Shown here: positions 11,274 to 42,071 of the stretch, piece after piece | Numbering within the stretch: the stretch's first letter is position 1 | Layout: every line of letters starts with the position of its first letter | DNA from: Pseudoselenomonas ruminantium | GTDB lineage: Bacteria; Bacillota; Negativicutes; Selenomonadales; Selenomonadaceae | Direction of reading: 5' to 3' | Assembly: GCF_900104055.1 (NCBI RefSeq) | Contig: NZ_FNJQ01000001.1 | Span: forward strand, 124,001 to 188,000 | DNA: 64,000 bases | The notes under the pieces: model-generated | What the model saw: only the letters and a program-made list of their open reading frames with translations | Databases searched by the model: none | What the model was told of the DNA's origin: nothing | Made by a program: the position numbers and the translations under genes

Positions 11274-11612
11274 GGGGATGTAATGGTTTCGACGGGGTAT
11301 TGAAGCCACGAGGTTCGCAGGCCAATGGTTACGAAGCCTAACTCTTAACCGCTAAATGTAATTGACGAATTCGATTACGCATACGCTGCCTAAGCTTCGG
11401 CTTAGCAGCCCCCTCGGTATCACTAGCTGCGGGCAGGGCTGAGGGTTTCAAATAAGCGCAGCAGTTTTTCCCCTTTTCGCAAAAGAGGATGGTGGAGAAC
11501 TCTGAATCCCAGAGTTGCGCTTCTATGATGTTAGCATACTCTAACTATTGCGATAATGCCTTGTGATGTGGATGTATTTCGGACAGGAGTTCGATTCTCC
11601 TCATCTCCACCA
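11274..11612 (+). ncRNA. ssrA: Transfer-messenger RNA (tmRNA)
   Basis: The 5' end GGGGATGTAATGGTTTCGAC and the 3' tRNA-like end (GGAGTTCGATTCTCC, then CATCTCCACCA) pair into the acceptor stem, with CCA encoded. The tag reading frame ends in GAC GAA TTC GAT TAC GCA TAC GCT GCC TAA, giving ...DEFDYAYAA, and its stop lies in the usual hairpin (CTGCCTAAGC, TTCG, GCTTAGCAG). tmRNA rescues ribosomes stalled on broken messages and tags the products for proteolysis. The upstream boundary of the tag is not obvious: the codons before it read CTA AAT GTA ATT, so a longer tag such as NVIDEFDYAYAA is possible. A GACCGGTC hairpin ends the gene. Confidence 0.96.
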
Positions 11613-40172: not shown

Positions 40173-40249
<77 letters not shown>

Positions 40250-40397: not shown

Positions 40398-40706
40398 ATG
40401 GCAACGACAGTCATTACGAAAGATAATTTCCAAGGCGAAGTGCTCGACCAGCAAGGTACGGTACTGATTGACTTCTGGGCAGAATGGTGCGGCCCCTGCC
40501 GGATGCTCTCCCCCGTCATCGATGAAGTCGCCGCAGAGAACCCGTCCATAAAAGTCGGCAAAGTCAATGTGGACGAACAGCAGGAACTTGCCGCCCAGTT
40601 CGGCATCATGAGCATCCCCACCCTGCTCGTATTCAAGAACGGCCAGAAAGTCAACGAATCCCTGGGGCTTATTCCCAAGGAACAGGTGGAAAAACTTATC
40701 GGCTAA
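40398..40706 (+). CDS. trxA: Thioredoxin
   Basis: 102 residues. The active site FWAEWCGPCRML has Cys31 and Cys34; IDFWA, VDEQQELAAQFGIMSIPTLLVF (cis-Pro in SIPT) and GLIPKEQVEKLI complete the fold. It is a general disulfide reductase. AAGGAGG precedes the ATG. It is monocistronic and ends with a terminator at 40737-40771. Confidence 0.97.
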   Translation: MATTVITKDNFQGEVLDQQGTVLIDFWAEWCGPCRMLSPVIDEVAAENPSIKVGKVNVDEQQELAAQFGIMSIPTLLVFKNGQKVNESLGLIPKEQVEKLIG

Positions 40707-40736
40707 AAAGGAAAGTAAAATAATCCCTGATATCTC

Positions 40737-40771
40737 AAAATCCCGCCGGCACTAAATGCCAGCGGGATTTT
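40737..40771 (+). terminator. Terminator of trxA
   Basis: AAAATCCCGC / GCGGGATTTT with CGGC/GCC extension; T run downstream. Confidence 0.8.
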
Positions 40772-40773
40772 GT

Positions 40774-41373
40774 AAATTGCAGTTTATGCGAGCTTAAAAT
40801 AACTTGTTACAACGCAGTGGGGCGGAGGTGGGAATACTTTTGCGCCGCTCGCTAAAATGACCCGCCAGCATAAATAGTGCTTTCTAGTCACCTGCGCCGG
40901 GCAGGCCGGCGGCGCGTATGTTCAGCTCAGTATCTAGCAACTAATGCTTGCGGGCCATCCCTCACTACGTTCGGGCAGTCGCTCGTTTGCGCAAAAGCAT
41001 CCCCACCTCTGCCCAAAGTTACGATTGTATCTGTCTGCCACGTTTCGGCTAGAAGCTGCAATCACATCGATGTTCTTGTTACGGGAGCAACGGTTCGTGT
41101 CGATTGCAAATTCCGTATCTTGGGGCGAACGGGGGCGTGCTTTTGCTGTGGGAGCGACAGTCTGAGCGCAAGCGAAGACCGGCCCGACGCAGGTAATATC
41201 TAGAAAGCACGCTGAAAGACGCGCCGTTGGCCTGCCCGGCGCATCCAGCTAAACAACTCTAAAATTGCAGGGAGGGACGTTTAGCGGAAACAGCAAAAGT
41301 ACGCCCCCGTTCACCCCTGACTACGTATGAACAAGATACTATTCAGCACGTACTAATCAACAAACTGCAATTT
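40774..41373. repeat. Nested ~600-bp inverted-repeat element, apparently non-coding
   Basis: The ends are the perfect 12-bp inverted pair AAATTGCAGTTT (40774-40785) and AAACTGCAATTT (41362-41373). The left half and the reverse complement of the right half stay recognisably similar throughout, for example around GCGCCGGGCAGGCC at both centres. Each half is itself an inverted repeat: 40818-40845 against 40990-41015, and 41120-41149 against 41290-41318. The middle lies near 41060-41080. Frames inside the element do not look like proteins. It resembles two miniature inverted-repeat elements in opposite orientation. Confidence 0.75.
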
Positions 41374-41387
41374 ATATGCGCGCTCTT

Positions 41388-42071
41388 TTATTTTCCAGCC
41401 AATTGTTCCATCGCTTCCCGGTCGATGATCTTGATGCACCCGCGGGAGTTTTTGATCAGACCTTCCTGATTGAAATACTTCACGAGGCGGCTGACCACTT
41501 CCCGGGCCGTGCCCATAAAGCGGGCAATCTGCTCGTGCGTCAGATGGATTTCCTCTGAGCCGTTTTTCTCGCTTTCTTCCAATAAGAAGATGGCGAGCCT
41601 GCGGTCGGCGGAGAAAAACAGGACCTGCTGCATCTTCCAAAGCATATCGGACAGGCGGCTGGTCGCCATCTCATAGCCATAGCATCGCACCAAGAGATTG
41701 CTATCGGATAATTTGCGGAAAGTCGGGGACTTGATCAGCAAAGCTTCTGTATCCTCCTCTGCATCCACATAGACATCAAAGGTCAGGGAATCCAGCACAC
41801 AAGGAGCAGACAGGACGCCCACATCATTGGCAAAGAGCCGATAGAGCGTGACTTCCCGGCCATCTTCCGACATGGTATAGACACGAAGCTGTCCTTTCTT
41901 CAACAGATGCACACCAATGCAGTCCAAAGTTCCCTGATGAACATGTGTTCCTTTAGGATAATGCACAATTTTCGATCCTTCTATCAATCGTTCCTTCTCC
42001 GCCGTTGACAATTGCGGCCAAAAGTCAAAATGCTTGATAAACAGATCCATGAACTCTGATTCTGAGGCCAC
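41388..42071 (-). CDS. Crp/Fnr-family transcriptional regulator
   Basis: 227 residues. The N-terminal cyclic-nucleotide-type beta barrel (about 10-130, including HYPKGTHVHQGTLDCIGVHL and FANDVGVLSA) is followed by a dimer helix and a winged helix-turn-helix (LTHEQIARFMGTAREVVSRL then YFNQEGLI). Four Cys are scattered and not arranged as an Fnr 4Fe-4S ligand set, so a small-molecule or heme ligand is more likely than an iron-sulfur cluster. Crp-like palindromes occur in this window near trxA, prs and the alpha-glucosidase gene. The gene ends 15 bases beyond the large inverted repeat. Confidence 0.9.
   Translation of the reverse strand: MASESEFMDLFIKHFDFWPQLSTAEKERLIEGSKIVHYPKGTHVHQGTLDCIGVHLLKKGQLRVYTMSEDGREVTLYRLFANDVGVLSAPCVLDSLTFDVYVDAEEDTEALLIKSPTFRKLSDSNLLVRCYGYEMATSRLSDMLWKMQQVLFFSADRRLAIFLLEESEKNGSEEIHLTHEQIARFMGTAREVVSRLVKYFNQEGLIKNSRGCIKIIDREAMEQLAGK

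Follow-up and report, generated by a model that had tools for sequence, protein, structure and literature searches.

The intergenic region between trxA and the Crp/Fnr-type gene

The window analysed here is a stretch of DNA of 64 kb. It contains, directly behind a tRNA gene at 40173-40246, the gene trxA and, on the other strand, a gene for a Crp/Fnr-type regulator; both names come from the first-pass annotation and fit the open reading frames (ORFs). A tmRNA gene lies elsewhere in the window (11274-11612; Rfam match of 98.7 bits). The intergenic region had been described as one large imperfect palindrome with a perfect pair at its ends and with an inverted repeat in either half, and this description was confirmed (Table 1). 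The palindrome spans 600 bp (40774-41373), the terminal pair is identical over 13 nt (40773-40785 and 41362-41374; 100%), and the arms match at 88% over 26 nt in the left half and at 93% over 28 nt in the right half. The sequence said to be common to the two centres, GCGCCGGGCAGGCCGGCGGCGC, was found at 40894-40915 and, in opposite orientation, at 41221-41242. The hairpin that abuts the palindrome on the trxA side is part of the site and not of the element.

Table 1. Features of the element and of its surroundings (positions in the window)
Feature	Position	Strand	Remark
trxA (thioredoxin), left neighbour	40398..40706	+	name from first-pass annotation; ORF fits
Terminator-like hairpin (stem and A/T tracts) abutting the element after trxA	40736..40772	+	
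Whole element, copy of dispersed repeat	40774..41373		600 bp
Left terminal inverted repeat, AAATTGCAGTTT	40774..40785	+	family consensus AAATTGCAGTTTG
Hairpin H1, 5' arm, left half	40820..40845	+	pairs with 40989-41014
Inner hairpin H3, left half (GCGCCGGGC...)	40894..40915	+	
Hairpin H1, 3' arm, left half	40989..41014	+	
Central palindrome ACATCGATGT, between the halves	41064..41073		conserved
Hairpin H2, 5' arm, right half	41122..41149	+	pairs with 41290-41317
Inner hairpin H4, right half	41221..41242	+	inverted homologue of H3
Hairpin H2, 3' arm, right half	41290..41317	+	
Right terminal inverted repeat	41362..41373	-	
Crp/Fnr-type regulator gene, right neighbour	41388..42071	-	name from first-pass annotation; ORF fits

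Transcription through the region had been expected to give a very long hairpin. Folded as single-stranded DNA, the 600 nt form one long hairpin of -132.7 kcal/mol, as against -94.7 ± 5.6 kcal/mol for dinucleotide shuffles (z = -6.75), with none of 100 shuffles as good. The halves, folded as RNA outward from the centre, gave z values of -4.06 (100 shuffles) and -5.19 (200 shuffles). Self-comparison bore out the palindrome, with only short blocks of 26-34 nt in the window copy; in a second copy, L008, the right half aligns in inverted orientation with the left half of the window copy (69% over ∼213 bp). The long-range inverted similarity between the halves is moderate.

Coding capacity and transcription signals

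The view that the region holds no convincing gene stood up, as no conserved protein was found among the aligned copies of the element. Of 119 aligned copies, 11 keep the frame of the longest ORF in the window copy (40877-41203, 108 aa) open and in register; an ORF of at least 100 aa of any kind is present in 52 of the 119 (median 92, longest 157), and neither of the two ORFs of the window copy tested had a Pfam match at E ≤ 0.01. In this lack of coding capacity the element is like a miniature inverted-repeat transposable element (MITE).

Scans of positions 40700-41400 detected no sigma-70-like promoter and, with a stricter terminator search, no terminator-like site, the hairpin at 40736-40772 included. 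At gathering scores Rfam gave no match within the element, and on this ground a known structured RNA family or a group II intron was rejected; at E-values up to 5 there were two hits far below gathering, both in the flank just ahead of the element. The 8-mer GTCAGCGG occurs four times in the window as against 1.8 expected, a number reached by 15 of 100 shuffles and hence not significant.

A family of dispersed repeats confined to one genus

A search of related genomes for the repeat unit was rewarded with dispersed copies, among which a unit of ∼600 bp recurs. Within the genus (the Selenomonas ruminantium group) 15 of 22 genomes matched the window copy used as query, and outside it none of 58 did. 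With a divergent copy the matches numbered 16 among 189 genomes of the family, and all 16 belonged to a single one of 30 genera; the sixteenth genome, G019, has a match of 77 nt only, and none to the window copy. A pattern scan of named genomes, from which records near the window's own genome were possibly left out, returned 23 stretches, all in Selenomonas ruminantium records (GACV-9, ATCC 12561, HD4 and the MAG SIG241). No match to the element was found in viral contigs (searched with one exact pattern) or in phages (blastn).

The assemblies are mostly drafts, G011 and G013 among them; that of G010 consists of one contig, and that of G017 includes a contig of 3.0 Mb. The window's own genome (G000) has ∼40 strong places among the 40 scored of 70 candidates. 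Six of its copies are complete and one is internally deleted, while most others are truncated where a contig stops, the repeat having broken up the assembly. There are 33 places in G010, 31 of them near full length, and 28 near-full and three split copies, plus fragments, in G011. Half-only or internally deleted places account for 2 of the 33 in G010 and are more numerous in G017, where several copies are deleted or interrupted.

The element is bounded by a terminal inverted repeat (TIR) of 13 bp with the consensus AAATTGCAGTTTG; as in MITEs, both TIRs (with at most three mismatches) were present, together with a length of 560-650 bp, in 58 of 66 fetched copies. Each half of ∼300 bp consists of a long-armed hairpin (H1 or H2) and inner hairpins, and the halves are inverted homologues set head to head. 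The first-pass annotation had seen here two palindromic elements of ∼200 bp head to head, either a pair of miniature transposable elements or one structured RNA. Two palindromic units there are, but the unit that recurs is the whole ∼600 bp with a TIR at each end, and half-only or deleted places are a minority; therefore, this is one composite element and not a pair of independent ones. An origin as a miniature transposable element fits the data, though not as a pair of such elements.

Aligned copies are ∼595-615 bp long, except for a subfamily of 666-671 bp in G002 and G012 (L135, L136, L137, L220 and L222). In the longer copies, inspection by eye places ∼60 bp that include a terminator-like hairpin (CCTTCCCC...GGGGAAGG) within the right end; this sequence seems to be a gain, such as the capture of a neighbouring terminator would produce. 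One derivative of 277 bp (L168, G017:C1:1247149-1247425) retains both TIRs, with one mismatch, and is deleted between H3 and H4. Three G011 places (C5:340465-341183, C7:140739-141476 and C11:184515-185372) matched in two pieces with extra central sequence and an overlapping stretch, and similar two-piece copies were seen in G005 and G020; these could be products of recombination.

Among plasmids only pSR1 matched. Its record (NC_002139.1, 'plasmid pSR1'; L258) contains a stretch of ∼450 bp from the element, with 97% identity to a copy of strain HD4 (L092) and a common left flank; the junction with the HAMP-domain gene shows, as judged by eye, a microhomology resembling TTCAGCGTGCT. The record may represent a circularised or cloned chromosomal segment.

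In the titles and opening parts of abstracts listed by searches of an open library on Selenomonas repeats, MITEs, concerted evolution and insertions near terminators we found no description of this repeat family.

Placement beside hairpins

A hairpin starts 0-20 bp from the element end in 64 of 174 flanks, while at offsets of 60, 100, 150, 200, 250 and 300 the counts were 11/171, 3/171, 12/171, 11/171, 4/161 and 6/137. This count was made without a T-tract requirement. Recounted for hairpins with an A- or T-tract, the number is 63 of 174 flanks as against 4, 1, 3, 7, 0 and 2 at the same offsets; with homologous flanks counted once, a hairpin stands at the end in 43.4 of 125 clusters as against 2.5-8.5 of 102-122. 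The hairpin may sit on either side of the element: for the 59 elements with both flanks it was present on one side in 34, on both sides in two and on neither in 23. We call these hairpins terminator-like from their form. Many of them have a common core resembling CCGCTGAC...GTCAGCGG.

The trxA-crp gap measures 682 bp in G000 and 689 bp in G013, but 98-158 bp without the element in G010, G011, G014 and G007; in G017 it is 355 bp and contains an internally deleted copy. At the remaining 8 of the 15 loci examined, either the two genes were not both placed or the gap obtained was not sensible. The copies are thus dispersed and some sites are empty in relatives, again as in MITEs. At another site G008 and G016 (L186/L189) have no element and carry AAATTGCA / AAATTACA where G011 has a copy; this is a possible excision scar or a possible pre-insertion sequence.

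No target duplication of more than 2 bp was found, with only scattered matches at 3-9 bp, and a duplication of 2 bp (TA) is indistinguishable from a target preference. The sites have a T|A tendency and nearby hairpins, and a further common motif was not seen. Neighbouring genes were read as tandem at 13 places, convergent at 12 and divergent at 9, with 124 without a call.

Common sites with swapped and inverted contents

Many sites, judged by their flanks, are common to several genomes. In a tree, weakly resolved with 20 of 58 inner branches open, the copies cluster according to genome, or to group of related genomes, rather than according to site; for instance, G017 copies are 0.954 identical among themselves and 0.853 to those of G013. 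Copies of G003, G005, G006, G008, G010, G011, G016 and G020 intermingle, and therefore donors need not come from the same genome; the copies of G000 are scattered, with one G003 copy (L078) among them.

Same-site pairs of the cross-genome comparison were required to have flank alignments of at least 80 bp on both sides. Copies failing the length, or with more than three TIR mismatches in one set (58 of 66 copies kept) and more than four in the other (94 of 108 kept), were excluded, as were the three loci L301, L305 and L311. The pairs are not independent, as 33 come from 18 sites and all 47 from 30. Among the 33 cross-genome pairs, 17 have the element in the same orientation and 16 have it inverted; at 16 of the 30 sites compared there is at least one inverted pair. 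The window copy itself and the HD4 copy L084 occupy the same site in opposite orientations with 0.814 identity, between flanks that are 86-88% identical. At the site of L011 (G000) and L312 (G013) all 22 of 22 bases are identical on each side, while the element is inverted and 0.797 identical. The draft state of most assemblies calls for caution here; a misassembly would be expected to join foreign flanks, not to invert an element between collinear ones.

The sister genomes G010 and G011 were compared with 25 G010 copies from 33 places and 27 G011 copies from ∼31; 6 and 8 of these, respectively, had no partner in the sample. They have 19 same-site pairs with a mean flank identity of 93.9%, 11 in the same orientation and 8 inverted. 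For 11 of the 19 pairs a closer G011 copy was found at another site; the same-site copy was the closest in the other 8 (six in the same orientation, two inverted).

Same-site pairs had a mean identity of 0.886 versus 0.864 for different sites, a value equalled by none of 10 000 random samples. Split by orientation, the aligned identity was 0.887 in same-orientation pairs, 0.841 in inverted pairs and 0.842 at different sites; the same-orientation excess was reached in none of 20 000 samples and the value for inverted pairs in 10 538 of 20 000. What residual common descent the same-site pairs have lies wholly in the same-orientation pairs. In two inverted pairs, L315/L330 and L346/L329, the same-site copy is the best match of the G010 copy, which suggests simple inversion in place; as the sole cause of flips this was rejected, since inverted pairs have on average no residual similarity. 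The same-orientation pairs L106/L338, L344/L098 and L347/L326 are mosaics with one or both ends kept and the interior replaced, and they weaken exchange of whole-element cassettes as the only process.

Variants at TIR positions 1-3 were compared in 21 inverted pairs. In 6 of 13 cases, drawn from four sites, both copies had the variant at the same end of the site; at three of these sites only the outermost base is concerned, possibly flank rather than element. No variant was common to opposite ends, where base frequencies predict 0.88. At positions 4-13 the score was 3 of 26 for the same end and for the opposite end alike. Ends whose TIR had more than four mismatches were left out. The distribution suggests that points of exchange may lie inside the TIR.

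Conservation of the helices

Across 119 copies, 83% of helix cells are Watson-Crick pairs versus 34-43% with the partners shifted by 1-3 bases, a comparison that favours the actual helices as they were named from the window copy. Changes on both sides of a pair were observed at 40832-41002 (TA 76, GC 42), 41140-41299 (CG 59, AT 52), 41166-41173 (AT 68, GC 50) and 40826-41008, with one-sided intermediates in only 1 of 119 copies at the first and at the third of these. Over all named helices GT (329), AC (423) and other non-pairs (182) outnumber the second Watson-Crick types (321).

Consensus folding gave -42.2 for the outward strand versus -31.2 for the other in one half, and -31.0 versus -23.5 in the second; the outward strand folds better in 88 and 97 of the 119 copies, respectively. 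Conserved wobbles agree with the outward-strand folding: on the minus strand 40833-41001 (105/119) and 40836-40998 (110/119), on the plus strand 41139-41300 (96/119). The two-sided changes and the better folding of the outward strand are compatible with the structured-RNA option of the first-pass annotation, while the missing promoter and Rfam match speak against it. Pair changes and strand bias could arise from RNA, from single-stranded DNA or from correction between arms, and taken alone do not prove an RNA.

Transposases and comparison with known repeats

A search with the TIR pattern found no autonomous partner with the same ends in G010, in G017 or, among the matches listed, in G000; in G010 every TIR match with at most one mismatch was, by reading, a 600-bp-type copy or stood alone. 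Three TIR pairs of 2326 bp in G017 were rejected as an autonomous element, being 600-bp copies that carry an insertion sequence (IS) of the IS1182 family (491-aa transposase, NF033551, E = 8e-106). This IS is present inside five G017 copies (L165, L166, L167, L301 and L305; in the last two only one IS end was seen), in four at the same point of the H1 arm and in one in the H2 arm, and this suggests the arms of the palindrome as its target.

Co-occurrence with transposases was followed for the Y1 and IS110 families. A role as passenger of IS110/IS1111 elements was rejected, with PF02371 present in 7 of 15 element-bearing genomes and not in G000, G010 or G013. Y1_Tnp matches (E ≤ 0.001) were absent from six of the 15 (G001, G002, G005, G010, G011 and G017).

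We file the element as a non-autonomous palindromic interspersed repeat in the broad sense, under no named family. In REPINs, which depend on RAYT transposases, two inverted palindromic units form one long hairpin and many copies lie between genes; the element is like them in all of this, but is several times longer, bounded by TIRs and without co-occurrence with Y1 transposases. Group IIC introns insert beside terminators, and the element resembles them in its placement at terminator-like hairpins and in a length near 600, but it has no Rfam group II match, possesses TIRs and has the hairpin on either side. With bacterial MITEs, of which MITEAba12 of Acinetobacter is an example (PMC6382973), it has in common that it is non-autonomous and non-coding, with TIRs and multiple intergenic copies; it differs in its large size (600 bp), in the two structured halves set head to head, in that neither an IS with matching ends nor a diagnostic target duplication was found, and in the exchanged or flipped content of its sites. 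Being a dispersed repeat of one species group is a likeness to BOX and RUP, from which the element is set apart by size, architecture, adjacency to hairpins and exchange between common sites. BOX and RUP are repeats of the pneumococcus (PMC3049150).

Origin and evolution of the element

The explanation that we consider probable is a MITE-like palindromic repeat that sits at inherited sites and evolves by exchange between copies. An element of ∼600 bp bounded by TIRs is present at dozens of places per genome, often beside a terminator-like hairpin; sites common to several species often hold a non-orthologous copy, with whole or partial elements replaced by family members, and about half of the compared common sites carry the opposite orientation in at least one pair. 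Because of the TIRs, the scatter and the empty sites we infer that the element spread by transposition, probably with an enzyme acting in trans and with at most 2 bp of target duplicated; its initial mobility is reasoned indirectly, since no transposase with its ends was found. The palindrome would be fragile, hairpin-forming DNA that provokes breaks; repair from another copy, or recombination with it via the near-identical TIRs, would then swap the content in either orientation, so that mosaics, concerted evolution and flips would arise with no new insertion. Any part of breaks, or of a particular recombination enzyme, in this exchange is hypothetical. Going further, one could speculate that the sites are inherited docking positions and that recombination inside the 13-bp TIRs shuffles whole elements in either orientation, a process that would be neither transposition nor ordinary gene conversion; we put this forward only tentatively, both the shuffling and its distinctness.

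If the element were instead excised precisely and reinserted, in random orientation, at exactly the same preferred sites, the sites would be common through target specificity and not through inheritance. Such recurrent transposition predicts the random orientation observed (17 to 16 in 33 pairs from 18 sites) and inverted pairs without residual similarity; the strong adjacency to terminator-like hairpins suits it, and the G008/G016 site with AAATTGCA or AAATTACA resembles an excision scar. Yet the T|A tendency and the hairpins seem too weak to direct repeated targeting of the identical base, partial mosaics retain one end of the resident element, some variants of the outermost TIR bases remain at the site although transposition should bring in whole TIRs, and no transposase was found; we consider this unlikely. 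The transposition in trans of a REPIN-like element by a Y1 (RAYT-type) enzyme would account for two inverted palindromic units in one, for the intergenic location and for the lack of a long target duplication, but 6 of 15 element-bearing genomes have no Y1_Tnp match, 4 of 7 genomes lacking the element have one, and clear TIRs and a length of 600 bp are unlike REPINs. For present-day genomes the Y1 distribution largely refutes such a mechanism, with some assemblies being incomplete, and its probability appears to be very slight.

Selection on RNA could also have preserved the structure. The element would then be a structured non-coding RNA family, with two homologous predicted RNAs of ∼300 nt transcribed outward from the centre and stopped by neighbouring terminators, mobility being secondary. 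Base pairs changed on both sides (40832-41002, 41140-41299 and 41166-41173) and consensus folding that favours the outward strand in both halves are what this predicts. Against it are the absence of a sigma-70-like promoter in 40700-41400 and of an Rfam match, the 7 of 22 genomes of the genus without a match to the window copy, and the GT, AC and other non-pairs, which outnumber the second Watson-Crick types; moreover, few one-sided intermediates would also be given by arm-to-arm correction of DNA palindromes. We consider such an RNA family improbable.

The reading of a MITE-like repeat exchanged between inherited sites bears on how such sequences are understood. The usual view of dispersed repeats in bacteria is that they jump, decay and disappear; here many positions persist between species, and the persisting positions hold swapped and inverted sequences. 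Synteny or phylogeny drawn from such intergenic repeats would mislead, and many contig ends of the window's own assembly are due to the repeat. Concerted evolution of dispersed palindromes becomes measurable in a cultivable rumen bacterium, and this would show whether the exchange is driven by breakage of the palindrome, by short terminal repeats or by an unknown recombinase.
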